A DNA stretch of 64,000 bases, from assembly GCA_903892355.1 (NCBI GenBank), contig CAITIE010000032.1, positions 62,001-126,000 on the forward strand, in the 5' to 3' direction. A model generated the notes under the pieces. The model ran no database searches. It worked only from the letters and a program-made list of their open reading frames with translations, and had not been told where the DNA came from. The translations under genes were made by a program, and so were the position numbers. The stretch is from an uncultured Pirellula sp. Its GTDB lineage: Bacteria; Planctomycetota; Planctomycetia; Pirellulales; Pirellulaceae. Shown in pieces: positions 1,311 through 64,000 of this stretch; within the stretch, counting starts at the first letter, position 1; each line of letters starts with the position of its first letter.

Positions 1311-2894
1311 ATGACGCAAATAACAGCGGAACGAGTATTCGAACTCATCGAAAAAAGTCGGCTTGTTGAGGCGGGTACGCTCTCAGCCAAGTTCGATGAA
1401 ATTCGTGCTGCACATGCGGGCGAACTTCCCGAGGACCCAGTCGTACTTTGCAAAGAGTTGGAGGCTGCGGGGGTTCTCACTCGCTGGCAGTGCGAGAAGA
1501 TCCTTCAGGGTAAATACAAGGGGTTCTTCCTCGGTAAGCACAAGCTGCTCGGTCACATTGGGACTGGCGGAATGAGCAGTGTGTATCTTGCGGAACACAC
1601 GGTGATGAAACACCGACGCGCGATTAAAGTGTTGCCGAAATCCAAGCTTGGCAATTCTTCTTACCTCGAACGCTTCCAGCGAGAAGCCAAAGCGATCGCC
1701 AGTCTCAACCACCCGAACATCGTCCGGGCCTACGATATCGATAATGAGAAGGACACTCATTACATCGTTATGGAATACGTCGAAGGTGCCGACTTGCAGA
1801 TTTTGGTGAAAAAGCATGGGCCGCTGCCCTACGGGATTGTCGCGGATTACATCGCACAAGGCGCCCGAGGATTGCAACATGCCCACGACCATGGCTTGAT
1901 CCATCGCGACGTAAAGCCCGCTAATCTGCTCATCAACAAAGATGGCTTGATCAAAGTCCTCGACCTGGGATTGGCGTTATTCCAGGACCAAGGGGACGCG
2001 TCGCTGACGATGGAATACAACGACAAAGTCCTCGGGACCGCGGACTATCTGGCTCCGGAACAAGCTCTCAACAGCCATACGGTCGACAATCGCGCTGATA
2101 TTTACGGGTTGGGGTGCACGATGTACTTCCTGCTGACCGGCCATCCTCCGTTCCCAGACGGCAGCATCGCCAGCCGTATCGTCAAGCACCAAAACACCAT
2201 GCCTCCCGACATCCGATCGGATCGTCCAGATTGCCCGGGTGAATTAGATGGTATCTGCGTGAAGATGATGCAGAAGGATCCGAAGTACCGTTACGCAAAT
2301 TGCGCTCAAGTCGCCGAAGTGCTCGAAGTCTGGCTTGCCAAGTACCGCAAAGAGCACCCAGAGGTTGCCATCAAGCCCGCCAAAGGGATGTCGATCGATG
2401 AGTTGCTCGAGGAGACCAAGTCGCGCAGCAATGCAATGACTGAAACCGTCAATAATCGAAGTGCGAAAACGATGGATGGGAACGCCGAGGTTGGAAGCGG
2501 CGTGATGAAATTGTCCGCATCCGATAGCGGAGTTCTCCGCGCGATCGCCAAATCGGATGGCTCGTCGGTCGACAGCCACATCGATCTGGTCCAAGATTCG
2601 AACCAACCCAACCCAAAGCGATCAAAAGCGAATGCCATCGCGACTGCCACCGGTGATTCCGCAGTCAGCCGCAGTGGCGCCTCGCCTTTGGTAAAGCCGA
2701 TCGACAATTCCGGGAAAGCCCCCAACCCAGCTGCGGCAAAGGGACCTGCTGCCCCTGCGAAGCCCTCGTCGCCCGCCAAAAACACACCAGCCGTTCCGAA
2801 ACGTAAATCCAATCAGTTGCTCCTGATCATCGCAGGGTGCATCACACTGCTTCTGTTCATCGCGATCCTCATCGCCGTTCTTTCGAACCGGTAA
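1311..2894 (+). CDS. Ser/Thr protein kinase with a C-terminal membrane anchor
   Basis: A Hanks-type (PknB-like) kinase of 527 residues. Visible elements are the Gly-rich loop GTGGMSSVY (84-92), the ATP-binding Lys in RAIKVL (K106), the catalytic loop HRDVKPANL (D200), a DLG metal-binding motif and APEQ in the activation segment. About 75 residues precede the kinase domain and resemble the helical lead-in common in planctomycete kinases. A Ser/Pro/Ala-rich linker (about 350-495) leads to a single hydrophobic segment in the last 27 residues that ends LLLFIAILIAVLSNR. There is almost no extracytoplasmic part, so this is tail-anchored rather than a sensor kinase with an outside domain. Substrates cannot be told from context. 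Confidence 0.93.
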   Translation: MTQITAERVFELIEKSRLVEAGTLSAKFDEIRAAHAGELPEDPVVLCKELEAAGVLTRWQCEKILQGKYKGFFLGKHKLLGHIGTGGMSSVYLAEHTVMKHRRAIKVLPKSKLGNSSYLERFQREAKAIASLNHPNIVRAYDIDNEKDTHYIVMEYVEGADLQILVKKHGPLPYGIVADYIAQGARGLQHAHDHGLIHRDVKPANLLINKDGLIKVLDLGLALFQDQGDASLTMEYNDKVLGTADYLAPEQALNSHTVDNRADIYGLGCTMYFLLTGHPPFPDGSIASRIVKHQNTMPPDIRSDRPDCPGELDGICVKMMQKDPKYRYANCAQVAEVLEVWLAKYRKEHPEVAIKPAKGMSIDELLEETKSRSNAMTETVNNRSAKTMDGNAEVGSGVMKLSASDSGVLRAIAKSDGSSVDSHIDLVQDSNQPNPKRSKANAIATATGDSAVSRSGASPLVKPIDNSGKAPNPAAAKGPAAPAKPSSPAKNTPAVPKRKSNQLLLIIAGCITLLLFIAILIAVLSNR

Positions 2895-14073: not shown

Positions 14074-17000
14074 TTACTTCGCTCGGAGTTGGATGCTCTC
14101 GGAGTGGCTATTGAACTCCGGCGCATACATGCATTGAATCGATGCATACCCCATCGGATAATCCCCCGCGTGCTGAACACGCAATGCATACTCGAACACG
14201 TATGTCCCTTTACGGAGGTAATCGATAAAGAAGTGGGTCGCGGTATCGCGGGTGCTCTCGTAGTAGAACAGCCCGTCTTGGAACTTGTAGCTACTGAGTA
14301 CGTTCACCGGTTCGGTACCACTGCCACGGTAGTCTTTCAGATGCACATATTCCATGTCGCGGTCGGTTCGGAGAACAACGCGACAAACGAGCTCCTCCCC
14401 CACGGAAACCGTTCCATCGGGATCTTTGCCATCGACTTCGACGAGGACGGGTCCGGTCTCCTTGAGAATCCGCTTATAAAGTTTCTTTTCGAGCTTGAGC
14501 GGGTTCCCTTCGGTCGGCGTGATCTTGTCGATCGATTCGAGGTATTGCCAATGCAAGCTTCCCCAACTCACGCCGGCATCTGGCTTGCTCACCGTTACGC
14601 GTCCCATCTCCGGCTTGATCTCACTTCCGGTGAACTTGTGCTCGTAGAAACCGGTGCCGGCCTCGACATCCTCGGGGACGATAGTCATGTCGGCAACTTG
14701 GACGGCAACCAAAGCATCGGAGGACAGCCAGTTATTGCCTCGCCTGAGCAGCGCGTACACGGCGTCCGCGGTTGCCTTAGTCGTCTTCCAATTCTGAGTC
14801 TGCTTTTGCTTGAGGAGCCAAACCTTGCACTCTTCGACGGCCCGTTGATCGTCAGATACTTCGTCGAATGCTTCGACCATCATGGCTTGCGTTTCGATCG
14901 GTGCATGGTACCACCACCATGATCGCTCGGTATCTCGCCAAAACATTCCCATCTCCTCGTTGGAAACCGAACGTTCATCGAGACTCTTTACAATCGCTGC
15001 AGGGACTTCTTTGTCCCCCATCCGCTTCAAGGCGACCGCGATGTGGGCTTGGGATTGGCGATTGAGCTGCAGCCAATGCTTGCGGGCTTGGTCTTGCCAA
15101 AACCGAAACGGAACGGAATGTTCTTCGGCAACGGCGCGATCGCCGAGGAAGAAGCTTCGTCCGTACAAGTACAAGGCGATGGTGCTCGAGAGATGGTTTT
15201 TCTCGACGGTCCGATCGACTGCCGGAATCCGATCGTACCATTCGTGCATCCAGGCATCGAGTCTTTCCAAGGCACGGATCGCCATCGACTCATCGATGCG
15301 CACACCCAAGTGACGGAGGCGACCAAATCCGGTCACGATGTAAAGCGATAGGTATTCGTTATCTGGTCCACCCGGGAACCATGGCCACATGCCGTTTTGC
15401 CGTTGCATTTGAGCGAGTTTGGTGATGGCGGAGTTCACTTCGGCGTCCAGCCGATTGTTATCGAAGAGGATGCCGACATTGCGTCGCGACTGGGATTCCT
15501 TCATCGCATCGCGCAGCCAAGGCGTCTCCTCGATCATGACACTCTTAAGATCCTCGTTCTTTTCTAAAGGTGACTTCAGTGCATCGGGTTGCACTTGTCT
15601 CCAAACATCGAAGACTCGCTGGATTTTTGGATCGCTTTGGGCGATATGCCGTGCAAGGCTATTCGCGTAGAGACGGTTGAATGTTTGTTCGCTGCAATCG
15701 TAGGGGTACTCCATAAGGTACGGCAGTGCGAGGACCGCATACCATGCAGGCTGCGAGGTCATCTGCACGGTGAGCGACTGATTGCGAATCGTTTTGGAAT
15801 CTCCTGACTCGAGCAACTTTTTCAGCTCGAATTCCTTCTTGGAGTTTCCGCGGATCGGGAGCGGGATCGACTCGGTAACCAAGACTCGGTTAGAAAGCAC
15901 AGGCAGCATGCCTTGTTCGCCATCCGACATCTTCTCGGTAGCCGCAATCGTGGTGTAGATGATGGGCTTGGCCCCATCAGGGACACTCAGCTTCCATCGG
16001 AAACTCTTCGATTGTTTCGGAGCGAGTTCAAATGGCTGTTCATTGGTTTCATTGCCGTACGCCCCATCGACGCTCGCTTCGGTGATCGCATCGGTCAACT
16101 TGAGCGCGACACGTCCCGACTGAGCGGATTCGGATTGGTTTGTTACCTTGGCAGAGAACTCGATCACATCCCCCTCTCGCAGGAATCGAGGTGGGTTTGG
16201 TTGAACCATCAAGTCCTTGGCCGAGATGACTTGGTCGAACAACCCGCCGCTTCGCAATTCCTTATCGTGCGCAAATCCGAGGAACCGCCACGTGGTCAAG
16301 GCTTCGGGCATCGTGAACTCTAGTTTCACTACACCGTCGCGATCGGTGGTCAATTGAGGGAAGAAAAATGCTGTTTCGTTTAGATTTTTGCGAGGAGCGA
16401 CTTTGGCAAGGGAGGCTGCTCCGGAATCTCCGCCGGGTGGTACCGTTTCAGCGGTACCCGCCAATCCAAGATCCGCGGTGACGGCCACTCCAACTTGAAA
16501 ACGGCCTGGCGCCGCCTCCGCATCGGCACCTGCAGCATTCTTCCGCATCGGTGCATCGTCCGCTAACATCGCGGCGGCTGGGGCCATGGCCATCTCGGGC
16601 ATGAGTCCTCCACCACCGGCTCCGAGACCACCGGCTCCGGGCATACCTCGCCGTTGCCTCATCCCAAAATAGGCCATCGGCATCATCCGGAGATCCTCCG
16701 GGAATTGCCGATACGACAGCATCACGGTTTTGTACTGCGCATTGAAGTTACCTCGCAAGTGGCTGAAGGGCTTTGCATAATTCTGAAACGCAAGGTACGA
16801 CGAATCGTATTCGGAATAAAACACATTGAACTGGCTGATCCAAGAATGGGGTGAAAACGCATCGAGGGACGAGTCATACATGGCTGCAGCGAATTCAGCC
16901 GCGGCAAGGGTCGCGTCAGGCCCGGAGATTTTTAGGCTCCAAGACTCCTTCGCACCTGGCTCGAGTTTTGAACGGAACTTCTCCCAACGCAGCTTGAGCG

Positions 17001-20000
17001 ATTTATTCGTCCACGGAACATCCACATGATGGTTGGTGGAATAGGCGCGATTCTCATGCACCATCGTTACACGGACCGAAACACCACCGCGCATCGACTC
17101 ATCGATTTGCTGTTCGATCGCGGCTTGGGTAGCATCGGCAGGTGTCCAGTATTTCTGCAGGACGTTGCCTCGATGAAGCACCTCGACGAATGCCCTCGCT
17201 TTATCGTAGCCTGAACCCCAGATTCCTTTCCATGATGTACCAGGCTCAACGGCTTTAGGCTGAGCTAAAAACAGGTAGGGAAGTTTGAGCCCGAGTGTTT
17301 TCGCGTCGTCTTCGATGACCTTGAGATTGAGTTCCGATTTGACCGGCTTGCCGAATGCGTCTTGCGACTCGAGCAGAATACGATAGGTTCCGCGTGGAAG
17401 CTGGAGACCAAACTCGGATTTGCCGTCCGGATCGGTCTTAAACGTGGAATCGAAGACCATGTCTGCGAGTGGCCAATTTCTGAAATCGGCCGGGTCTGGT
17501 GCGCCGATGGGAGGGATAGGTTTTAGGCCGCCTGCTCCCTGACGATTTCGTGCGCCCCCTTTGCCTCGCGTTGGACGTACCATCGCTGGGCCGAACAGAT
17601 TTGGCCGTTCGATGGTTGCAGGCTCCTTGAGTCGGTGCACTTTGATCTTTCCCTCGGCGGGCATGGAGGCACCACTTAAGTTCGACGTATTCACGCGTAC
17701 TTTGATCTCTTTACCGACCGATTGCCATTCGTCCGCAGCCAAGGATGCTTGAAGGGTGGTGTACCCGACCGAAACCGATGTGTTTCCGGTCCGAGTCTCA
17801 CCGGTACCGTCCGTGACGTCAGCGGTGATTGTGTACGTAAAGATAGGTTGATCCGACTCGGGAACCGATCGGTCTGGCTTCGCCACAAAATCGATCGAGA
17901 ACGAACCATCGTCCGAGGTATCGGTCCAACCATGGGCTATTTCTTGTGCTTGCCCCAGGTTAGGCGCGATTCGCCATGAGTAGCAGAACATGAACCAATC
18001 GGGCCATCGAACTTGGCGAGTCACCCGATACCGGACGCGGCCAGCTTGGATCGGTGCCCCGGTGTAGGCGATGGCTTTGCCAGTAACATGCACCGGTTGG
18101 TCGAGTTTGGCGACATCCCGCATGGGGTCGATGGTTACCTGGAATTTGGGGCGTTTGTATTCCTCGACGCGAACAACTTGGTAAGAATTTTGAACGTCCA
18201 GTACAGAGATGCTCATCGGACCCGTCCCTCGATCGCGAGGGGCGGTGAAGGTTCCGCTAAATGATCCGAAATCATTGCTTCGAACATCGAGCGTTTCGAT
18301 TTCCTTGCCGTTCATGTCCCGAAATTGGACTCGAAAAGCTCGCGAGGGAACCACTTCGTACTTGTTCGTTTTGGTGCTCGCGATCATAGCGACACCCTTT
18401 ACGTGGACCATTTGACCAGGCCGATAAATCGATCGGTCGGTAAACAGAGCAACATTGATTCCGGGCTCGATATTGGGTTGAGTGTAAGTCGCGTACTCTT
18501 GGCCCGTGGCCAGTTCTTGCCCATGGTGACTCGCGAGCAAAATCATCCCGCGATTCTGCGATGAGAACTCAAACATCCCATTGCTATCGGTGCTGAGCGT
18601 CTTTTCAAGCTTCAGCTTGTAGGTATTTTCATCACGGGTGAATGCACGCACCGAGGCATCGGCAAGTGGTTCGCCAGTTTGATTGTTGAGAACAAATCCA
18701 GAGATCAGCGAGCCATTGGAAACTTGACGCACGACCAACGCGAGATCGGTAACCCAAACCTCGCAGGCGCCGACCACGTTGTCGTTCTCTCTGAAATCCT
18801 CGCGAGCACTGTAAAGGATCAAATAGTAGCCACTTGGCAGATCGGCTGGTGCTGCGAAGTCTTTCGAATCCTCGTGGAAGTCGTCGGTGGGTTCCAGGTC
18901 GGCGGACCAATTGCGAGCCGAGGGTTTGGTCACCAGTTCCCCCATATCGTCCTGATTGAATTGTTCCGATTGCCAACGATCACGCGCAAATCGCCCCATC
19001 CAGTCTGCCCGCACTGCTCGGAAATAGACTTTGTCAATATTGCGGTAGCTAACTCGGATCGATGAGGATGGCTTGTTCCAGACTCGCTCCGTCTGGACCG
19101 ACACCGATTTGGCTTCAATGCTCTGGATCAAGTTGAAGCAAAGCTTGCCACCCGCGCTCTCCGGGAATGCGTTAGCCCCTTGCTGGGCAACTTCACGCGC
19201 TCCGACGAGATCGCTTTCTGATTGCAGGATCTCGGCGAGGCGATGCAGTGCCAGAGCCGACAACTCATGGTTGGAATACTTGTTCGCGAACGCCTTCAAG
19301 GCAGCTTTGGTACGACTCTTCCCTTCGTCCCCTTGGGCGTTGGCATATCCGAACTGCAATCGCCCTAACTCTGCATCGAGCCATGCACTTCGATCTGTAT
19401 CGGGCTGGTGGAATCGAAGAAGTTTCTGAAAAAGTCGGATCGCCTTCAGTTTGGGAGAATCCGAATCCGTGGTCTTCGGATCCCACGCGAGGAAATCATC
19501 CACGGTGCCCAGGATCGGGCTCGCGGCATCCAGCTCAAATGCATCCTCACGCTTTGCGCCAGCTTGTTCGCCCGATGCGTAAAAATCGATCGCGACGAAG
19601 GCGAGAAAATCATAAAGCGTAGGCCGATACGTGTCAGGTAAATTTCCCTTCTGTAGCAGCGCATCGTACACCTCGATCGGAGTCTTTTGCAGGCCGGCTT
19701 CGTCCTCGAGCGCTGCTGTGTAGTGCTTGTCGATCTCCGCAAAGAGCCTTTTCAAATCCCAAGTCGTGAAATCGTCACTGGGAGCCGATTCGGTAGCGGA
19801 TCGATTCGCAAACCGCCACCGGTTTTCTTGGAAGTAGCCCCAATACCAGTACCCCATCAACGCATGCATAGCCGATTTCATTTCTGGCGGGGCCGTCTCG
19901 AGCTCCTTCTTCATGCGTGTGATGCGCTCTGCGGGACTTCCTCCTTCGATGTCGCTTTCAATCGCAATCCGTTTCGCAATCGCCTTGATCGCCTCTGCAT

Positions 20001-20247
20001 ATTCTTTGTCGTGAAGAGCGCCCGCCAAAATCGGCTTGATCTCCTCGAGGGCGGACTTTGGTAGCCCTTTGTTCAAGGCTTCGTCAACTTTTTTCCACAT
20101 GGCCGCTCGTTCTTGGGCTGAGGGGGTTTGGTACGAAAGGAAAGCGGGTGCCTTTGCCGCCAAAGCTACGAGGCCGATCAAGAGGATCGCAAGGAGGGCG
20201 TTGCGGGCGAGCAACGATATCGCCGTGGGACGAATGCTGCGAAGCAT
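14074..20247 (-). CDS. Bacterial alpha-2-macroglobulin with thioester motif
   Basis: A 2057-residue broad-spectrum protease trap of the cell envelope. The N-terminus has a signal or anchor helix (SLLARNALLAILLIGLVALA), then about 350 helical residues, then macroglobulin-like domains. The MG2 hallmark is TDRSIYRPGQMVHVKG. Further on are PEALTTWRFLGFAHDKEL before the thioester domain and YDCSEQTFNRLYAN containing the thioester CxEQ (C1518, codon at 15694-15696). A Gly/Met-rich bait-like insert precedes the central part. The ATG at 20247 is preceded by AGGA; a TTG at 20286 in frame is less likely. No penicillin-binding protein 1C gene, the frequent partner, is next to it. Confidence 0.92.
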   Translation of the reverse strand: MLRSIRPTAISLLARNALLAILLIGLVALAAKAPAFLSYQTPSAQERAAMWKKVDEALNKGLPKSALEEIKPILAGALHDKEYAEAIKAIAKRIAIESDIEGGSPAERITRMKKELETAPPEMKSAMHALMGYWYWGYFQENRWRFANRSATESAPSDDFTTWDLKRLFAEIDKHYTAALEDEAGLQKTPIEVYDALLQKGNLPDTYRPTLYDFLAFVAIDFYASGEQAGAKREDAFELDAASPILGTVDDFLAWDPKTTDSDSPKLKAIRLFQKLLRFHQPDTDRSAWLDAELGRLQFGYANAQGDEGKSRTKAALKAFANKYSNHELSALALHRLAEILQSESDLVGAREVAQQGANAFPESAGGKLCFNLIQSIEAKSVSVQTERVWNKPSSSIRVSYRNIDKVYFRAVRADWMGRFARDRWQSEQFNQDDMGELVTKPSARNWSADLEPTDDFHEDSKDFAAPADLPSGYYLILYSAREDFRENDNVVGACEVWVTDLALVVRQVSNGSLISGFVLNNQTGEPLADASVRAFTRDENTYKLKLEKTLSTDSNGMFEFSSQNRGMILLASHHGQELATGQEYATYTQPNIEPGINVALFTDRSIYRPGQMVHVKGVAMIASTKTNKYEVVPSRAFRVQFRDMNGKEIETLDVRSNDFGSFSGTFTAPRDRGTGPMSISVLDVQNSYQVVRVEEYKRPKFQVTIDPMRDVAKLDQPVHVTGKAIAYTGAPIQAGRVRYRVTRQVRWPDWFMFCYSWRIAPNLGQAQEIAHGWTDTSDDGSFSIDFVAKPDRSVPESDQPIFTYTITADVTDGTGETRTGNTSVSVGYTTLQASLAADEWQSVGKEIKVRVNTSNLSGASMPAEGKIKVHRLKEPATIERPNLFGPAMVRPTRGKGGARNRQGAGGLKPIPPIGAPDPADFRNWPLADMVFDSTFKTDPDGKSEFGLQLPRGTYRILLESQDAFGKPVKSELNLKVIEDDAKTLGLKLPYLFLAQPKAVEPGTSWKGIWGSGYDKARAFVEVLHRGNVLQKYWTPADATQAAIEQQIDESMRGGVSVRVTMVHENRAYSTNHHVDVPWTNKSLKLRWEKFRSKLEPGAKESWSLKISGPDATLAAAEFAAAMYDSSLDAFSPHSWISQFNVFYSEYDSSYLAFQNYAKPFSHLRGNFNAQYKTVMLSYRQFPEDLRMMPMAYFGMRQRRGMPGAGGLGAGGGGLMPEMAMAPAAAMLADDAPMRKNAAGADAEAAPGRFQVGVAVTADLGLAGTAETVPPGGDSGAASLAKVAPRKNLNETAFFFPQLTTDRDGVVKLEFTMPEALTTWRFLGFAHDKELRSGGLFDQVISAKDLMVQPNPPRFLREGDVIEFSAKVTNQSESAQSGRVALKLTDAITEASVDGAYGNETNEQPFELAPKQSKSFRWKLSVPDGAKPIIYTTIAATEKMSDGEQGMLPVLSNRVLVTESIPLPIRGNSKKEFELKKLLESGDSKTIRNQSLTVQMTSQPAWYAVLALPYLMEYPYDCSEQTFNRLYANSLARHIAQSDPKIQRVFDVWRQVQPDALKSPLEKNEDLKSVMIEETPWLRDAMKESQSRRNVGILFDNNRLDAEVNSAITKLAQMQRQNGMWPWFPGGPDNEYLSLYIVTGFGRLRHLGVRIDESMAIRALERLDAWMHEWYDRIPAVDRTVEKNHLSSTIALYLYGRSFFLGDRAVAEEHSVPFRFWQDQARKHWLQLNRQSQAHIAVALKRMGDKEVPAAIVKSLDERSVSNEEMGMFWRDTERSWWWYHAPIETQAMMVEAFDEVSDDQRAVEECKVWLLKQKQTQNWKTTKATADAVYALLRRGNNWLSSDALVAVQVADMTIVPEDVEAGTGFYEHKFTGSEIKPEMGRVTVSKPDAGVSWGSLHWQYLESIDKITPTEGNPLKLEKKLYKRILKETGPVLVEVDGKDPDGTVSVGEELVCRVVLRTDRDMEYVHLKDYRGSGTEPVNVLSSYKFQDGLFYYESTRDTATHFFIDYLRKGTYVFEYALRVQHAGDYPMGYASIQCMYAPEFNSHSESIQLRAK

Positions 20248-20417
20248 GTTTCTGTTTCCTGTCCGAGGAGGAGTTTTGAGAAGCAAGGAGCGAGGGTGGA
20301 GCCCGCTGTATCCTTAGACGTTCCATCGCTGGATTTATTAGAGCAGATTTCGAAATTTTTTGGGATCGATCGGCACGGACAACTCGCCCGAACCGCGGTT
20401 TCGCCGTTGAATACCAA

Positions 20418-53879: not shown

Positions 53880-55571
53880 TTATTCTAGTCGCTCGAGGCG
53901 CATTGACTTTCTATCGATCACCAAATTTCCTGCTGCTCCCCGGACTCCCACCAAAACCTCGACGCTCGCTCGATCCTCAAGCACCGTGATCTCCATGGCG
54001 ATCTCTTGCCACATTGCATCTCCCTCCCAACGCAACCAGCGTTCGTCGCGTTGCGTACCGTAAACGATCGTTTCCAGATTCTCAGCATCCAACGGCTGTA
54101 ATTCCGAAACGCGAAACCGCCCTCGCAGAAAGTACTTGCCTCGCGAAAGCAACATCGGGCACCGCCACGCTCCCATTCCCGATTGCTCTCCTAAGAAATC
54201 CACTTCCAAACGTTCATCGCTGGTCCCCTCTCCTGAGACTGTCGCCGCGATCCTGTCACCGTCGGTGCTTGGATACCACGAATCCAACGGAACAGAACCT
54301 TTTAAAGGTATTTCTACTGGAACGGGATCTTCATCTTCCAATTGCGCGAGCATGTTTTCCGCTCGCTCGCGAATCCGTTGCTTGAGATCCTCAACCTTTT
54401 GCCGGTGTTGATCCTGAAATTCTCCGCCTAATTCTCCAATACTTTCCTGCAATTGCACCGATTTCTCTTCGATCGCTTCTAGAAGTTCGTCCGGTGGGTA
54501 AAAGATCGGCATCAGTTCGCGCACTTTTTCGCGGTATTGGTTCCTCAAGGTGTCGGAACTCATTACCACACGTGCAACCAACGCCCCGTTGGGATCAAAC
54601 AGAGGCATCCCAATGTCGCCGAAGATCTGGTCCATCCCGTGGGGTAGAAATACCGCCCGATTGGAATCCGGGTCCAAGTACAACCGGTAATTATTGGCGC
54701 TGTTGCAATAGCCGTCCCAATGCGCCACCATCCTCTCCAACGCGAAAAAGGTCAGAAACCGATCGAGATCGATCAGCTCCGAGAACCCCTCTACGCGTGC
54801 CTGAAAATCTCCACTCCCCAATCGTGTTGCGATCGTACGGAGATCGCTGTGATCGTCGACGCCATCACCTGCATCCTTTTCGAGTTCCGCATCCAGATCC
54901 TGCACAAATCCGCCATCGTATAGATTTCCCTTTGCCTCAGTAAAAAAACGCTGGATCAGGATCTCATCGTATCCCTCGCGAAGCACATACAATTCGGGCG
55001 GCCGGTCGTTGATCGTAAGGACCGCATGGGCCACACGAGGTGCGGGATAATGGGCCCGCCGAAAGACTTCGCTTCCCAACCACTCGTTCAAATACGTGTC
55101 ATCCTGAACTGAATTGTTCAAGTGGAATTTGTCGAGAGAATGGAAACGCACTCCCTTCTCGTACTTGTCCATGTTGATCGTAAAGCCAGGTTTCCCATCG
55201 AACCCCTGAAAACTACCGGCTGCTCCTTTTAACTTGATACCGATGGTCGAAAAAATCGCCCGCCCCGATTCCTCCAACGACGCTCGTACATAAGGCCTGT
55301 CGTCCCGCTGCAGTTTACCGATGTTGCTCTCGGAAATGCCGAGCTTCAAGGCATGCACCCCACGGTAGGAAAATACCTCGGCACTCGCATCGGAAGTCGC
55401 AGCGTTGGGAAGAGACAGTTCTGAACGGGGCGATTCTGAACGCCCCCCGATCACCCCAGGGACCGAATCGGTACCCAGTCGTGGCTTGGATCGGTCACAC
55501 CCCACCCCCGATACTATGCCCACGGCAACGAAGATTACGATCCAAAAATAACTTGGATGGACACAATCCAT
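53880..55571 (-). CDS. CotH-like protein-kinase-fold lipoprotein
   Basis: 563 residues from the ATG at 55571. The N-terminus MDCVHPSYFWIVIF leads to a lipobox, VSGVGC, so it is a lipoprotein. The CotH domain (about 75-370) shows KFHLNNSVQDDTYLNEWL, VLREGYDEILIQRFF, MVAHWDGYCNSANNYRLYLD and FLPHGMDQIFGD, matching the CotH kinase-like pattern. A coiled coil and a beta-rich module of about 130 residues follow. Family members include spore coat kinase CotH and bacterial polymer-binding proteins. The longer frame to 55679 would hide the signal peptide and is less likely. Confidence 0.85.
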   Translation of the reverse strand: MDCVHPSYFWIVIFVAVGIVSGVGCDRSKPRLGTDSVPGVIGGRSESPRSELSLPNAATSDASAEVFSYRGVHALKLGISESNIGKLQRDDRPYVRASLEESGRAIFSTIGIKLKGAAGSFQGFDGKPGFTINMDKYEKGVRFHSLDKFHLNNSVQDDTYLNEWLGSEVFRRAHYPAPRVAHAVLTINDRPPELYVLREGYDEILIQRFFTEAKGNLYDGGFVQDLDAELEKDAGDGVDDHSDLRTIATRLGSGDFQARVEGFSELIDLDRFLTFFALERMVAHWDGYCNSANNYRLYLDPDSNRAVFLPHGMDQIFGDIGMPLFDPNGALVARVVMSSDTLRNQYREKVRELMPIFYPPDELLEAIEEKSVQLQESIGELGGEFQDQHRQKVEDLKQRIRERAENMLAQLEDEDPVPVEIPLKGSVPLDSWYPSTDGDRIAATVSGEGTSDERLEVDFLGEQSGMGAWRCPMLLSRGKYFLRGRFRVSELQPLDAENLETIVYGTQRDERWLRWEGDAMWQEIAMEITVLEDRASVEVLVGVRGAAGNLVIDRKSMRLERLE

Positions 55572-55766
55572 AGAGACCTTGGCGGGCTCCGTTGATGGGG
55601 CTTTAAAATCAATAGGATCCATAAAATATTCCGCTAGCGCATCGCCTGTGATACCCATACGCCCAAATGCACTGACCACTTTCCAGTGAGTTCCTTGGCA
55701 ACTACAAACACGCCTTGTTTCACGCTACAGTATCATCCTCCTTCGTGCGTTACTTCGCAATTGGGT

Positions 55767-56751: not shown

Positions 56752-57924
56752 ATGAACGACGCATCTCTGCTTATGGGCGCCCGACGACTTCGAATCGCGG
56801 TCTTGATGGTTTCTATTCTCGCCATTAGTACAACCGCGCAGCAGTTATTCGCACAAGACTCAATTCCACGCGATGCGTCTGAGCACGCGTTGCGTCATCC
56901 CGCATGGACCAGTGATGTTGTCTACTGGGAAAGTAGTGTGCTGCTTGACGCTGAGGATGGGGCATCTCCGCGAGCTAGGCTAGCGCGCGGAGCTCTCGAA
57001 ATCCTAGCCATTCGCTCCGCGGATCGCGCAAAGACCTTGGACAAGGACTTCCGGCTAGACCCGAGCGAAAAAAACATTTTGCTGCAACAAGCTCCGAGTG
57101 TCACGACGATCAAACTATCAGAGCTCTATAAATCCCCGAATGCGCCGCAAAGTTATCGCCATCGGATCGGCAATGAGAATCAGTGGTTACTCTACGCACC
57201 CGGACGTTGGTTCCATGACCGAAACATCGAAGTCACCTACCGCGCTGAGAAAATCAAAGATGCGACTCCCATTAAATCCATTCTTGGTTACCTACCAAGG
57301 ACGCGTCAGCGTCTTCTCGATCGTGTGCCAGTCCGTATCGCGATTAGCGGGGACAGCATCTCAACAGGATTGGACGCATCGAAAACAGCCGACGCCGATC
57401 CCCTACAGGAAGGCTATGTCGAGCTACTCGCACAACAACTCAGAAACGACTTCCAATGCGAAATTATGGTCAACAACCGTTCGGTGCCTGGTTGGAGCGT
57501 TGCCAATGGGAATGATGATGTGCATAACCTGCTCGCTGACCAACACGATCTCGCTATCATCGCTTACGGGATGAACGATGTCGGCCGCCGCGATCCAAAA
57601 TGGTTTCACGACCAACTCCAAATACTGACCCAAAAAGTGCGCACACTCTCCCCGGATGCCGAGATTGTGCTGGTCTCGCCCATGCTAGGCAATAGCGAGT
57701 GGATCCATACACCCCCAGAAATGTTCGCAAAATACAGCGATGAAATGAAGAAGCTCGTCGGACCGGGGATCGCCATGGCAGATGTTACCGCCGTATGGAC
57801 CTGGATGAATCAACGCAAGCATTTTTTTGACATGACCGGAAACGGACTGAACCACCCTAATGATTTCGGGCACCGAGTCTATGCGCAATGCATCCTTCAA
57901 TTACTACCGCCACCCCCTGAGTGA
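56752..57924 (+). CDS. SGNH/GDSL hydrolase, secreted
   Basis: 390 residues with a signal peptide (VLMVSILAISTTAQQLFAQ). About 150 residues of beta structure precede the SGNH domain. Block I is ISGDSIST (S202), later blocks are IIAYGMND and the catalytic NDFGH (D371 and H374). It probably removes esters from carbohydrates or other polymers. The start at 56752 is a clear ATG. The last 21 bases overlap, tail to tail, the HTTM gene on the opposite strand. Confidence 0.9.
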   Translation: MNDASLLMGARRLRIAVLMVSILAISTTAQQLFAQDSIPRDASEHALRHPAWTSDVVYWESSVLLDAEDGASPRARLARGALEILAIRSADRAKTLDKDFRLDPSEKNILLQQAPSVTTIKLSELYKSPNAPQSYRHRIGNENQWLLYAPGRWFHDRNIEVTYRAEKIKDATPIKSILGYLPRTRQRLLDRVPVRIAISGDSISTGLDASKTADADPLQEGYVELLAQQLRNDFQCEIMVNNRSVPGWSVANGNDDVHNLLADQHDLAIIAYGMNDVGRRDPKWFHDQLQILTQKVRTLSPDAEIVLVSPMLGNSEWIHTPPEMFAKYSDEMKKLVGPGIAMADVTAVWTWMNQRKHFFDMTGNGLNHPNDFGHRVYAQCILQLLPPPPE

Positions 57925-58890
57925 CATTTCAGGTAGCGACCGGTTTCTAATCGCATCGGCGTGGCCTTCCATCGCGGGTACCGAGTGGGGCCCTTTGCGA
58001 CTCGCAATTCCCCATTCGCTTGGAATTACAAACGCCAATAACCCCAGCATCATCACCCATTCGAACAAGAATAGATTCATCGATAATTCAATACCCATGT
58101 GCAACGACACCCCAGCAAAGATCGCCAGCTTTCGCGTCCCACGAAACCATAGCGCCACCGGCAAGGTAGCTTCAATGAAGAGTGCTCCCCACGTTAATCC
58201 CGCACTGACCCAGAAGTGATCGAAGTAGACCGAGGGTACCAACCGCCCAAAGTTATCGGTCATCCGGGAAACGTACCACATCGCAGTCCCATTCTGCCAT
58301 GTCTCGCCCGAAAGCTTGCTTAGCGCCGCCGAAGCGTAAATCGCTGCCATTTCGATTTGGATCAACCGCAACCCCCAAGCCGATGCGTGTCGCCGGGCCC
58401 TTGCGACAGACTCACTGGAGCGTCGAAGAATCGACCAATACGCATCGAGTGGTAACCAAATCATCATGAAAGCAAAGATCCTGAAGACGGTATCCTCGCC
58501 ATCATTGATCAATGGATTGCGATTCTGGAACGAAATGAGCCACACAAAGATCGCCGCAGCCTGAACCCGTGAAAACACTCCGAAGAGCATCAACGTGGCA
58601 TGCAGTAGCAACGCCAGGAGCGCTCCGCGAATCACGAAGGGCGTGGAAGGTATCAGATAAAACAAAGACCATCCTACGGGCCTCGTCGTAAGTTTCGCCG
58701 TGCTGACACTCATGACGCCGGTGTCGCTGAACCACCTATCAGCATCATCCCACACTACCGCAACTTGAATAAGGATGAGGGTGGCAAACCCAATCCTGAA
58801 TAGCGAAGCGATGCGAGGATCGCAGCCTTCGAACAAGAACCGATCCCAGGCATCCATGCATCTCGAGGAAAAACGAAGCCATCCGCTCAT
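57904..58890 (-). CDS. HTTM-domain membrane protein (vitamin-K-dependent carboxylase-like)
   Basis: 328 residues with several membrane helices. The HTTM (horizontally transferred transmembrane) domain, related to vitamin-K-dependent gamma-glutamyl carboxylase, shows DPRIASLFRIGFATLILIQV at the start, WLISFQNRNPLINDGED and FRIFAFMMIWLPLDAYWSI, and later RLIQIEMAAIYASAALSKLSG. Bacterial HTTM functions are largely unknown. The ATG at 58890 overlaps the stop of the upstream gene as ATGA (58887-58890), so the two are coupled. It also overlaps the SGNH gene tail to tail. Confidence 0.88.
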   Translation of the reverse strand: MSGWLRFSSRCMDAWDRFLFEGCDPRIASLFRIGFATLILIQVAVVWDDADRWFSDTGVMSVSTAKLTTRPVGWSLFYLIPSTPFVIRGALLALLLHATLMLFGVFSRVQAAAIFVWLISFQNRNPLINDGEDTVFRIFAFMMIWLPLDAYWSILRRSSESVARARRHASAWGLRLIQIEMAAIYASAALSKLSGETWQNGTAMWYVSRMTDNFGRLVPSVYFDHFWVSAGLTWGALFIEATLPVALWFRGTRKLAIFAGVSLHMGIELSMNLFLFEWVMMLGLLAFVIPSEWGIASRKGPHSVPAMEGHADAIRNRSLPEMSLRGWR

Positions 58891-59534
58891 TTCGAATACT
58901 CGCGACGAAGCAAGAAACGATTTTGATTGCTCCAAACTGTCTCGGACTGCTTGGGCATCGGATTTTTTCCACTGAGTACCATGCGTTGCTGATACTGATA
59001 GAGCTTGATATCGAGTATCGGTGGAACCAGATCTATACCAGGAATCAATTCGTTGGCCTCACTCCACCTCATCGCGGGCACCGCATGCTCTTTGGCGGGA
59101 ATCGTACGGTGAAGGTAGGCCGCTAAATCGGAGCACGCGTAATGATTCTGCCCAACACGTTGGTAGTAGTTCATGTGGCGAAAGCGATAGAATTTGTCCC
59201 ATGCGGTGGCTCGTGCCCAATCGGGAGAACTCCAAGTTCCCTGCTGACGGTCGCCATCGGTAACCTCCGCGACGATGGTTCCATTTTTCAGGATCGGATT
59301 CGGCGCAAACAGCGGCCAATCTCCTTGAGACAGCCCAATCGAACCAAGGACTGGAAAAAGAGATTTCTTGATCGGATTCAAAAACTCAATATTCGCTGGC
59401 ATCGTGTCGATCGCGATCACGAGTGCACACAGACATACAAAACCACGGATCGCGATACGATGCTCTTTATCGTTGGGCAACTTAGATCCAGAACAGGTCG
59501 ATTCTGTTTCCGTCGCGTGGTTTAAAGGTTCCAT
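58887..59534 (-). CDS. HTTM partner protein, uncharacterised (possible DUF5819-like)
   Basis: 215 residues with one N-terminal membrane helix (IRGFVCLCALVIAIDT). The body contains GLSQGDWPLFAPNPI and TIVAEVTDGDRQQGTW, a pattern seen in small proteins encoded beside HTTM genes in other bacteria. I cannot confirm a named family. The coupling with the HTTM gene (a 4-base ATGA overlap) strongly suggests a two-protein membrane complex, with this protein as the soluble part outside the membrane. The ATG at 59534 is the start. Confidence 0.6.
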   Translation of the reverse strand: MEPLNHATETESTCSGSKLPNDKEHRIAIRGFVCLCALVIAIDTMPANIEFLNPIKKSLFPVLGSIGLSQGDWPLFAPNPILKNGTIVAEVTDGDRQQGTWSSPDWARATAWDKFYRFRHMNYYQRVGQNHYACSDLAAYLHRTIPAKEHAVPAMRWSEANELIPGIDLVPPILDIKLYQYQQRMVLSGKNPMPKQSETVWSNQNRFLLRREYSK

Positions 59535-59974: not shown

Positions 59975-61459
59975 ATGAGACGCGAAGAACTCCTTTCGTT
60001 TTTTGACAACTCCCCAACCGCTCGGTTGCTCCGATCCGATCTCGGTGCTTGCGTAATCGCATTCCTCTACGACACCTTCAAAGCCTCCTCGCTCCTCTCG
60101 ATTTCGCAATCGGATCTAAAAGCTCGACTCAAAGAGTTTCAGAGCGAGGTCCATGCCTCAAATCCTTCCATCATGCCGGGTTCGCCGGAGCGGTATCTCA
60201 GCCAATGGACGCAATCCCAATGGATCTGCCGCTTCGTCGATTCGAACTCCTTGGAACCGCAGTTCCAACTCTCGCACCATGCGGAAGAAGCGATTCGTTA
60301 TGTCGAAGATTCCATCACGCGACGCCAGCAATTGGTCGGTACCGAAAGCCGATTGCGATTAATCATCGATACGCTGAACGACATCGTCCGTGGATCCTCC
60401 GATGACCCTGGAAGACGCTTGGCATCCCTTCATTCCCAAAGAGATGCCATCCAACGCGAAATTGATGCTATTGAGTCCGGGGATCGATTTCATGTCTACA
60501 AGCCAAGTCAGATTCGCGAACGGTTTCAAACAGCTATCCACCTGCTGCGCGAATTGCAGTCCGATTTTCGAAATGTCGAAGATCGATTCCAACAAATCGC
60601 CCGCCGCGTCCAGCAATTAAAAGCCTCTGGCCTGGACAATCGGAGCTCGATCCTCGGATATGCACTCGATGCGGAGGAAGCCTTGAAGCACGAAGATGAA
60701 GGAGTCAGCTTCTACGCATTCGTTCGTTTCCTCCTCTCCCCGACGGAACAAGCTACCCTCAGGAAGCAAATCCAGGAAGTCCAGGAATTAACACCATTAG
60801 CGGACCAAAAGGAGTCACTCGATCGATTGGGAAAAATGGTCCCGTCTCTGTTAGCCGAAGCGGACAAAGTGATGCGTACCACAGCTCGCCTATCCTCGTC
60901 TTTGAGACGGTTGCTCGATTCGAAATCAGAAGCCCACCGCACGCGACTGACCCAAGTTCTTTCCGAGATCCGCGACGCAGCCGTGTTGCTGCGCGATTCC
61001 CCTCCCAACGGCATCTCGATCAAACTCGATACGGACGCTTCCCTGCAATCACCCTTTGCTCGCCCATTTTGGGTCCCCGAAGCTGGCTTTCAATCCCTCC
61101 CCGTCGAACCCCAATCCATCGCCCCCGAACAAATCAGTCTCCTTGCCTCGGCGTTTTGCAAGCTGGTCCGTTTGGACATGCGCAAACTCCGAAACAATAT
61201 TCGAGAGGCTACGTTCGAGGGTAACGTCTGCTCATTGAAAGAACTGATCGAACACTCTTCATCGGACATCGGAATCGCCCAAGTCCTCGGGTACCTGCAG
61301 ATTGCTCACGATGACGCGCACGAAATCGACTTCATGCACCACGAATGGATCGAACTGCCTGCAGATCAGCATCCGATCTCGCCAAAACGAATTAGGGTAC
61401 CCAAGGTCCTCTTCACGGCCAAAGCAAAAAATAGAGCATTCGCAAGGAAACCACGTTGA
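59975..61459 (+). CDS. jetA: Wadjet type I component JetA (DUF3375)
   Basis: 494 residues of the DUF3375/JetA family, the kleisin-like subunit of the Wadjet SMC complex. The N-terminus ELLSFFDNSPTARLLRSDLG and the following SQWTQSQWICRFVD, then AEEAIRYVEDSI, match the family opening. A long helical middle (about 150-330) with coiled-coil pattern and YAFVRFLLSPTEQATLRKQI follow, and the C-terminal winged-helix-like part (about 400-480) is less conserved. The complex extrudes DNA and directs cleavage of circular plasmids. The stop overlaps jetB by one base in TGATG. The ATG at 59975 is used without a strong Shine-Dalgarno. Confidence 0.9.
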   Translation: MRREELLSFFDNSPTARLLRSDLGACVIAFLYDTFKASSLLSISQSDLKARLKEFQSEVHASNPSIMPGSPERYLSQWTQSQWICRFVDSNSLEPQFQLSHHAEEAIRYVEDSITRRQQLVGTESRLRLIIDTLNDIVRGSSDDPGRRLASLHSQRDAIQREIDAIESGDRFHVYKPSQIRERFQTAIHLLRELQSDFRNVEDRFQQIARRVQQLKASGLDNRSSILGYALDAEEALKHEDEGVSFYAFVRFLLSPTEQATLRKQIQEVQELTPLADQKESLDRLGKMVPSLLAEADKVMRTTARLSSSLRRLLDSKSEAHRTRLTQVLSEIRDAAVLLRDSPPNGISIKLDTDASLQSPFARPFWVPEAGFQSLPVEPQSIAPEQISLLASAFCKLVRLDMRKLRNNIREATFEGNVCSLKELIEHSSSDIGIAQVLGYLQIAHDDAHEIDFMHHEWIELPADQHPISPKRIRVPKVLFTAKAKNRAFARKPR

Positions 61460-62139
61460 TGGACACCATCCCCAATCTTTCCGAACCGGAATCGTCACGG
61501 TCGATTATTGTCGGTCGCCAAGACTGGAGTGGAGTGGCGGTAAGGCTGCTGCAGGGAGTCGTCTACCAAGATGATCACGCCGTCGCATGGGAAACGTTGC
61601 TTAACTCCCACGCTGAGTTGAAGAACTATTTTGCAACGATCGGGCTTTCCGTCATCGTCGATGAAGTTAATGCAATGGCGTATCTACGGCAGAACGACGA
61701 GCCGATCGAAGGCACCGCGGAGACTAGCCTTCCGAGACTCTTTCGCCGACAGCCACTCTCCTACGAACAAACGCTCCTGTGTGTGCTACTTCGCGAAGAA
61801 CTCCGGCAATTCGAAGAAAACGATGTGCAAAACGAACGCTGCATCGTCCAACAAGTCAACTTGCTCAGCGTTTGGCAGGCATTTTTTCCGGATTCAAGCG
61901 ATACCGTCAAACTGAATCGGACTCTAAATGCCACATTGCGTAAATTGGAAGAACTCAGGTTCGTAAAGCAGTTTGAAAAGGATCCCCCGTCCTGGGAAGT
62001 ATGCCGCATTCTCAAAGCCCGATTGCCACTTGAAGAGCTTGAAAACCTCCGGAAAACCTTGCTCGCAGAGGTTTCCAAAAAACAGATGCGACAGAGTTTC
62101 GATCGTCCTTCCCTCAGCCCATTGAGCCATGAGGAATAA
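61459..62139 (+). CDS. jetB: Wadjet type I component JetB (DUF4194)
   Basis: 226 residues of the DUF4194/JetB family, the kite-like subunit. Typical features are AVRLLQGVVYQDDHAVAWE, the beta-strand LSVIVDEVNAMAYLRQ, and RRQPLSYEQTLLCVLLREEL, followed by a helical C-terminus (LNATLRKLEELRFVKQF). The ATG at 61459 shares its A with the jetA stop (TGATG), with AAGGAA upstream. It is the second gene of a tight operon and lies directly before jetC, the order known for type I systems. Confidence 0.88.
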   Translation: MDTIPNLSEPESSRSIIVGRQDWSGVAVRLLQGVVYQDDHAVAWETLLNSHAELKNYFATIGLSVIVDEVNAMAYLRQNDEPIEGTAETSLPRLFRRQPLSYEQTLLCVLLREELRQFEENDVQNERCIVQQVNLLSVWQAFFPDSSDTVKLNRTLNATLRKLEELRFVKQFEKDPPSWEVCRILKARLPLEELENLRKTLLAEVSKKQMRQSFDRPSLSPLSHEE

Positions 62140-62146
62140 CGAAACC

Positions 62147-64000
62147 ATGAAATCTGTCAAAAAGCCAAACCGGGCTCCCTCCACCGTGGAACCCGAAGCG
62201 CGGAAAATTTCCATGCAACCAGGATATCGACTGTCCCTCTTGGAAATCTTCAATTGGGGAACGTTTGATGGCGCTGTTTATAGTATTGAACCTGATGGCC
62301 ACGCGACCTTATTGGTCGGTGAAAACGGATCCGGGAAATCGACAGTCATCGACGCCCTCTTAACACTGCTCGTACGCCCACAGACACGGAACTACAACGT
62401 AGCCGCCGGCGCGGGCAAGCAAGAGCGCGATGAACGCACCTACTGCCGCGGTGCCTATGACAGCACGATCAGCGCCGAAGGCAAATCACAAGTACAGTAC
62501 CTGCGCCCGAGCACCGGAACATACACTGCTCTCCTTGCCGTATTCTCCAAAGGCGTTGCAGATGCCCCACTACGAACCACCCCCGAGGAAAATGCGTTTA
62601 CAGTTGCCCAAATCCTCTACATGAATGCCGACAACAGTTGCCAGCGAATTTATGCAACGAGCCTCGGCAGGCGCACCATCAGCAAGGACCTGAACGGTTT
62701 GCAATCGGGCGCTTCGATGGTGAAACAGCTCAAGGAACGAGGCTTTGAGATCCATACGAGCTACCAGCAATACTTTCAGTGGCTGCAACGTCGAACAGGG
62801 CTCCGGTCCAAAGCGATGGATATCTTCAACCAAACGGTCGCTGTCAAAGACGTTCAAAGGCTGGACTCGTTCATCCGCCAGCACATGCTGGAAAAGCATT
62901 CCTGGAGCGACAGACTTGCGAAATTGTTGACTCACTTTCATGAATTGTCTGAGGCGCATCGGCATCTCTTGAGGGCTCGCCAACAGGTGGAGTTGCTCGA
63001 GCCAATCGCGTTGGCCGGCGCAGGCTACCAGCAACAACTTCACGATGTCTCGAACGCCCGAGATCGACTCGAAGCGTTGCCGTACGCGATCGCTGAATCG
63101 ACGGTGAAATTGCTTTCTCCCATGTGCGACGAATGGGAAAAGTTGATTGAAATGTCTCGCGAAAATGCCGAGCTTATCGACCATACGCTCGAAAAGAAAA
63201 GACGGGAAATCGCGCGTCTCGAAGTTCAACTCGAGGGCAACGTCCCTCCCTCGCATGCATACGCGCAATCCAGAATCGAGCAACTGCATCGATGGATCGA
63301 GGCCTCTGAAAGCAATTCGCAGCGCAGGAAGGATCTGCTCCAACGCCTCGGGTTACTTACCCATCGACCCTCCGAAGCGGATCCCCAACAACTTCGCGAG
63401 AACCTTTCAGAACGCAAGTCCTCCATCACCCAGAACCGTCACTCATTGCTCAGGCAAAGGGACGATACCAACCGCTCTATCTCTACACTTCAGCATCAAT
63501 TGCGTAACGACCGCGATTCCGTTGAGTTTTTAAAAACCAGCCAATCAAAGCTTCCTGAGTCACTGATTTCCGTTCGCGATGCACTTTGCAAAAAATTGCG
63601 CATCCGCAACTCGGAACTACCGTTTGTCGCTGAACTGATCGCAATATCTCCCGACCAACAGGCTTGGGCCGATTCCGTGGAACATGTGCTTCATGGTTTC
63701 GCTCGAAGCCTTCTCGTACCGGAGGCCCACTACGAACGTGTCACCAAATACATCGAGCAAAACCGTCTTGTCGACTCCAAGGGCCAAGGGCAACGGATGG
63801 TCTATTTACGTATACCTTCAACATCCTCCCCGTCGGTCGCTATAACCAGCACCACGAAGCCGAATGTTTCACAGCTTCCCGGTAAGCTCCAATTCCGCGA
63901 GCACCCTTTGACCCCATGGCTCCAAACCGAGATCAATCATCGTTTCAATGTGAAGGCGTGCGACTCGATCGAAGATTTTCAAAAAACTCCCCCACCTGCG
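62147..64000 (+). CDS. jetC: Wadjet type I component JetC, SMC-like ATPase, partial
   Basis: 618 codons are present and the frame is open through the right edge; JetC proteins are about 1100 residues. The N-terminal ATPase half has Walker A GENGSGKST (K64), preceded by SLLEIFNWGTFDG, a pattern shared by MukB/SbcC-like ATPases. A predicted coiled-coil arm rich in Glu, Arg and Gln begins about residue 270 and a hinge-like part (about 470-600) contains PFVAELIAISPDQQAWADSV. The ATG at 62147 follows GAGGAA that overlaps the jetB stop; an ATG at 62129 would overlap jetB by 11 bases. JetC binds ATP and drives DNA loop extrusion. Confidence 0.92.
   Translation, partial: MKSVKKPNRAPSTVEPEARKISMQPGYRLSLLEIFNWGTFDGAVYSIEPDGHATLLVGENGSGKSTVIDALLTLLVRPQTRNYNVAAGAGKQERDERTYCRGAYDSTISAEGKSQVQYLRPSTGTYTALLAVFSKGVADAPLRTTPEENAFTVAQILYMNADNSCQRIYATSLGRRTISKDLNGLQSGASMVKQLKERGFEIHTSYQQYFQWLQRRTGLRSKAMDIFNQTVAVKDVQRLDSFIRQHMLEKHSWSDRLAKLLTHFHELSEAHRHLLRARQQVELLEPIALAGAGYQQQLHDVSNARDRLEALPYAIAESTVKLLSPMCDEWEKLIEMSRENAELIDHTLEKKRREIARLEVQLEGNVPPSHAYAQSRIEQLHRWIEASESNSQRRKDLLQRLGLLTHRPSEADPQQLRENLSERKSSITQNRHSLLRQRDDTNRSISTLQHQLRNDRDSVEFLKTSQSKLPESLISVRDALCKKLRIRNSELPFVAELIAISPDQQAWADSVEHVLHGFARSLLVPEAHYERVTKYIEQNRLVDSKGQGQRMVYLRIPSTSSPSVAITSTTKPNVSQLPGKLQFREHPLTPWLQTEINHRFNVKACDSIEDFQKTPPPA

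Follow-up and report, generated by a model that had tools for sequence, protein, structure and literature searches.

The genome of an uncultured Pirellula sp. carries an operon encoding the JetABC motor but, as judged from its sequence, falls short of a complete type I Wadjet, since no JetD lies next to it and none was detected elsewhere in the genome. We consider it rather probable that the operon encodes an SMC motor that has no nuclease, acts in the same way as MksBEF or MukBEF and derives from Wadjet through the loss of JetD. The window, that is, the whole stretch of DNA analyzed, spans 64,000 nucleotides (G000:C32:62001-126000; a position on locus L002 plus 57000 gives the position in the window) and belongs to a genome (G000) of 6.18 Mb in 158 contigs, which is 96.93% complete and 0.56% contaminated.

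At the right edge of the window jetA, jetB and jetC overlap in one operon, with jetC cut by the edge. jetA (59975..61459, forward strand) encodes an intact mksF-like kleisin (DUF3375) of 494 aa, which matches PF11855 across the entire protein (E 3.7e-87) and has JetA1 as its best PADLOC model (E 1e-93). jetB (61459..62139, forward strand) encodes an mksE-like KITE subunit (DUF4194; PF13835, E 1e-33), with JetB1 as the best PADLOC model (E 2e-49) and a match above cut-off to the MksE family PF21980 (E 2.1e-9). Its ATG overlaps the jetA stop codon in a TGATG at 61457-61461, as noted in a preliminary description of this DNA; the mechanical list of open reading frames puts the start at TTG 61456 instead. 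jetC (62129..64000 in the window, forward strand) encodes an mksB-like SMC ATPase, of which the window contains the first 624 of 1148 aa (PADLOC JetC1, E 1.2e-286). Its start codon is either ATG 62129, in which case it overlaps jetB by 11 bases, or ATG 62147, which is preceded by GAGG, and it ends on its own contig at G000:C32:127575, 1,575 bases beyond the window. The full protein contains Walker A (GENGSGKS), signature (SGGE) and Walker B (FVMVDE) motifs. The Pfam families matched by the trio are DUF3375, DUF4194 and P-loop/SbcC Walker B, so that both Pfam and PADLOC models bear out the earlier reading of the DUF3375, DUF4194 and SMC-like ATPase genes as jetA, jetB and jetC. By these matches the identities of the three proteins are confirmed and all three are intact; their frames are open in G000 as well as in G421 and in one of the two copies of G437 (G437:C143).

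The preliminary description also expected JetD to come next, perhaps in divergent form. Extending the contig, which reaches 131240, 3.7 kb beyond the end of jetC, gave a different picture: jetC is followed by 63 bases and then by the end of a convergent DUF4332 gene (139 aa), beyond which lie genes for a protein that weakly matches cytochrome c', for a Gfo/Idh/MocA oxidoreductase and for a protein of 306 aa. Family searches of these neighbors found no JetD adjoining jetC, and with 63 bases to the DUF4332 gene and a 76-row JetD model blank on L002, a divergent or hidden JetD right behind jetC is ruled out. In the whole G000 genome, Pfam JetD_C gave a best E of only 0.578, an 18-row JetD profile gave nothing at E <= 1, and the best match to the JetD of G430 had E 0.10 and covered 51 residues with 24% identity. 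As positive controls, the 18-row profile retrieved real JetDs at E 1e-168 to 1e-170 (G437, G427), and the single G430 JetD found its match in G437 at 2.3e-94; about 3% of the G000 genome is missing, where an unlinked JetD could escape notice. The Wadjet call therefore stands for the proteins JetA, JetB and JetC and falls for the system, since JetD is absent and PADLOC defines Wadjet by all four genes, JetABCD (accessible text of PMC9252829). Of the two findings that the preliminary description had named as speaking against type I Wadjet, the next gene does lack a JetD, but the three proteins do match the JetA, JetB and JetC profiles. A stretch behind jetC that resembles a jetD start (MIR..., with an ATGA overlap, ATGATTCG) did not reach significance (P 0.056; 0.029 for the sister copy).

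The nearest JetC copies, G437:C143 (95% identity) and G421 (69%), also have no JetD beside jetC, and the DUF4332 neighbor is common to these two and G000 only, so that a single ancient loss would explain them most simply. In G421, a congener with 652 bases available after jetC, neither JetD_C nor the JetD profile found a match genome-wide.

The absence of JetD from G000 is no oddity of one assembly. In a sample of 343 genomes of the phylum, DUF3375 was above cut-off in 11 (12 loci), eight of which have JetD_C; the three without are G000, G048 and G069. In the family of G000, JetC was matched in 67 of 241 genomes. For 13 of these the only JetC is a distant one (22-25% identity), and each of them has a JetD_C match; the remaining 54, which have the same JetC type as G000, are the basis of the sorting by JetD. 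JetD lies beside jetC or within 3 kb in 29 of the 54 (counting G402, with JetD in two frames, and G412 and G413, with JetD cut by the contig end) and on another contig than jetC in seven (G362, G427, G428, G433, G437, G441 and G442). It is absent from 14 (G000, G349, G351, G352, G355, G357, G360, G421, G423, G434, G438, G443, G444 and G446), ten of which are at least 90% complete, and four (G350, G358, G361 and G439) were left unclassified owing to short or broken contigs. Among the genomes without JetD, the JetD profile gives merely E 0.127 in G423, in G446 short pieces resembling JetD are scattered over a contig other than that of jetC (E 3.8e-5 and 0.003), and G352 has jetC with jetA and jetB unmatched on the stretch examined. 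G437, a bin with 6% contamination, has two JetABC copies and one JetD (C73), which is nearest to the JetD of G427 (85%); the JetC of G427 is a near-twin of the other G437 copy, and for this reason G437:C143 is counted as lacking JetD.

A contig scan, whose figures are loci rather than genomes and were chosen by likeness to planctomycete JetC, also contained both states. Among the best 80 loci listed, 59 fall outside L077-L097, with JetD in 53, none in three despite room, and three too short; within L077-L097, which are 20 records titled planctomycetes plus one titled 'bacterium' and which include several duplicates of contigs from our genome set, JetD is found in 10, absent in nine, and two are too short. 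Blastopirellula marina DSM 3645, a cultured planctomycete, has the full JetABCD set (loci L094 and L195). A replacement gene common to JetD-less loci is ruled out, since no gene next to jetC is shared among them in a comparison of 25 loci of mixed state.

In a tree built from 61 JetC rows, the presence of JetD in cis requires at least seven changes of state; the tree is a quick one with some long branches and only 119 columns for row G430, and such changes alone cannot separate gain from loss. Three lines of sequence evidence speak for JetD having been lost or moved. First, the congeners G433 and G444 have syntenic flanks 86-91% identical, between which G433 carries a 1,670-base JetD segment that is cleanly absent from G444, a difference compatible with deletion and with insertion alike. 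Second, G048 and G069, class-level relatives with one contig each, have in common a short in-frame piece behind jetC that resembles the JetD start of their congener G238 (P 0 of 3000 and 0.001), and JetD_C and profile searches of these two genomes found no JetD. Third, G423 has a piece like a jetD start whose GTG overlaps the jetC stop codon (P 0.001). A remnant test on 20 loci without JetD beside jetC gave P < 0.05 in four (G437:C143, G423, G442 and G355) and P < 0.005 in two (G423 and G355), with a model that failed to detect the remnants of G048 and G069 (P 0.76 and 1.0); comparison with G238 alone revealed these. The remnant-like stretch of G355 lies in frame ahead of a gene that we take to be mnmE and may be due to chance.

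Where JetD is separated from jetC, its reading frame is open. Such JetDs occur in no fewer than three different gene contexts, and they retain the residues that are invariant in the 18-row alignment (E262, D305, D307, E374 and E376 in its numbering). In G433, JetD apparently lies about 9.6 kb upstream of jetA, as judged from synteny with G444. The seven of 54 family genomes with JetD and jetC on different contigs, G433 among them, indicate that motor and nuclease can be encoded apart in the genus, and they lend some weight to an explanation in which JetABC of G000 still restricts plasmids with a nuclease whose gene lies elsewhere, be it a JetD in the missing part of the genome or an unrelated nuclease acting in trans. 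We nevertheless regard this as unlikely, given the three blank searches of G000, the equally blank search of G421, a congener that lacks JetD at the same junction, and the lack of any jetC neighbor common to the JetD-less loci.

The dN/dS of jetABC was compared between pairs of genomes. Pairs without a JetD of their own at the locus gave 0.135 (G000/G437:C143), 0.119 (G048/G069) and 0.083 (G434/G438, jetB and jetC only), seven pairs with JetD adjacent gave 0.048-0.122, three whose JetD and jetC are on different contigs gave 0.024-0.078, and G433/G444 gave 0.047; flanking genes ranged from 0.014 to 0.30. All 17 JetC rows classed as JetD-less retain the Walker A, signature and Walker B motifs, including, over long branches, those of four genomes that form a JetD-less clade (G349, G351, G357 and G360) and three of which are only 73-85% complete. 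By these measures jetABC is under purifying selection in the absence of JetD, slightly less so than in most JetD-bearing pairs. The least credible explanation to us, in which the operon is a decaying and functionless Wadjet relic after a recent loss of JetD, is improbable despite the jetD scraps at the JetD-less copies of G423, G048 and G069 and the fragments of G446, because the three frames are open in each of G000, G437:C143 and G421, the per-gene dN/dS of G000/G437:C143 is well below 1 (0.12-0.15, with bootstrap upper bounds of 0.17-0.28), and the ATPase motifs are kept, also in the four-genome clade.

The dN/dS values of the JetD-less pairs, at or just above the upper end of the range of the JetD-adjacent pairs, together with the long stem of the JetC lineage of G000 (0.74 changes per column), leave room for a degree of relaxed selection or for a change of function. 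JetC columns with at least three changes, all of them in JetD-less branches, numbered nine against a null mean of 3.9, a figure reached by 7.1% of 1000 relabellings, and columns with at least two such changes numbered 23 against 13.9 (3.3% of relabellings). In this comparison, meant to map a putative JetD docking site from columns freed in JetD-less lineages, ten of the 61 rows were dropped and the unclassified G361 was counted as JetD-less. Section 7 of a review describes an IFDR motif at the JetB N-terminus that contacts JetD (PMC10586767); a loose pattern for it in the first 60 residues was found in none of 51 rows, with or without JetD alike.

Nuclease-free complexes of kleisin, KITE and SMC subunits that bind DNA, hydrolyze ATP and extrude loops are established among the relatives of JetABC. 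Intact JetA, JetB and JetC with their ATPase motifs, no detectable JetD, and selection after the loss favor a functional motor without nuclease. According to this proposal, an ancestral Wadjet operon would have lost jetD and kept the kleisin-KITE-SMC motor, which would load on DNA, hydrolyze ATP and extrude loops in the manner of MksBEF or MukBEF, and might help to organize or segregate DNA or compact plasmids without cutting them. Loop extrusion by JetABC and its choice of DNA target we infer by analogy. Each of the 20 genomes checked, G000 among them, also encodes a canonical SMC hinge protein, so JetABC would be a second condensin, and a role as the sole condensin is ruled out. More tentatively, it is possible that the type I Wadjet motors of planctomycetes are dual-use, that is, that JetABC has a selected job independent of the nuclease even where JetD is present, and that JetD is an optional, movable and repeatedly lost effector.

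The operon has the same three motor proteins as type I Wadjet (JetABCD, or MksBEFG), in the same order, in overlapping genes and with JetA1, JetB1 and JetC1 as the best models, but it lacks the Toprim nuclease JetD, which, as the review puts it in the part accessible, Bacillus subtilis needs alongside the other three for the suppression of plasmid transformation (PMC10586767). Like MksBEF of Pseudomonas aeruginosa, it is a nuclease-free kleisin-KITE-SMC operon in a genome with canonical Smc, and its JetB matches the MksE model; unlike MksBEF, it belongs to a different lineage and is type I JetABC by best model. A chromosome role has been shown for P. aeruginosa MksBEF (available portion of PMC7485682); the Pirellula motor might act on the chromosome or on plasmids. 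With MukBEF it shares the subunit plan and the lack of MksG/JetD, but the match of JetC to the MukB N-terminal model PF04310 (20.8 bits) is under the cut-off of 23, and JetC1 is the far better model. In its section 7 the same review proposes that MukBEF and MksBEF stem from Wadjet-like ancestors, and it views MksBEF as having arisen through the loss of JetD (PMC10586767).

Wadjet-group members without JetD are already in print: the accessible text of PMC7617805 names MukBEF and 'several other' members without MksG/JetD. That study checked the genes directly upstream and downstream by structure prediction, as its accessible part states, and a dispersed JetD would escape an approach limited to adjacent genes. 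In the portions of the open-access literature available, we came across neither dispersed JetD nor JetD loss in planctomycetes, though a report of either may exist.

For annotation, finding jetABC does not mean that a working Wadjet is present, and the lack of a JetD neighbor does not mean that JetD is absent from the genome. The useful part of these results is the repeated loss and dispersal of JetD within one family, which provides natural pairs with and without the nuclease. The passage of SMC motors between defence against plasmids and folding of chromosomes is a standing question. In this single bacterial family complete, dispersed and JetD-less versions occur together, and the congeners G433 and G444 differ by a clean JetD segment of 1.67 kb, so that the change can be tested directly.

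In two congeners, the locus of G433 (contig C39, L241) and that of G444 (contig C10, L237) differ by a 1,670-base segment bearing JetD and found only in G433; the flanks are 86-91% identical. These genomes are a clean natural pair with and without the JetD segment, arisen by insertion or deletion. A possible remnant was detected in G355, a genome of the same family as the window without detected JetD. There, a stretch 3' of jetC (L183) resembles the start of jetD (P = 0.0045) and lies in frame ahead of a downstream protein which, we presume, resembles the GTPase MnmE. This stretch is possibly a deletion junction, and possibly a chance resemblance. Outside planctomycetes, the JetC loci of Selenomonas (L120) and Accumulibacter (L135) had no JetD match within ~10 kb downstream.

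A comparison of 51 JetB N-termini shows the motif LPPPxxW ahead of a conserved AVRLLQG in many JetD-bearing rows. It is missing from JetB of the clade of the window's own genome and of G355, and also from G411 and G412, although JetD is present in these two. At most, LPPPxxW is a lead towards a JetD contact.

Upstream of jetA, and divergent to it, the window carries genes for an HTTM-domain protein and a partner (57904-58935 and 58887-59534, both minus strand; HTTM E = 1.1e-13). The pair is likewise upstream of jetA in G421 and was not found there at the G437 copy on C143. Elsewhere the window encodes a bacterial alpha-2-macroglobulin of 2070 aa (14074-20286, minus strand; domains A2M, MG2 and bMG10), a CotH-kinase family protein (53880-55679, minus strand; E = 8.9e-24) and a kinase-like protein of 527 aa (1311-2894, plus strand). 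The last matched many PADLOC models of PD-T4-6 and other kinases (best E = 3.1e-105), and is probably an ordinary planctomycete Ser/Thr kinase.

Finally, intact jetD genes occur away from jetC (L197, L200, L198, L201, L202, L199 and L204), and their gene neighbourhoods are of three or more kinds. JetC of G427 and of the second G437 copy are near-identical (L165/L166; branches of 0.003-0.006), but the JetDs of these genomes (L197/L200) share only 85% identity, and therefore motor and nuclease may have had separate recent histories.
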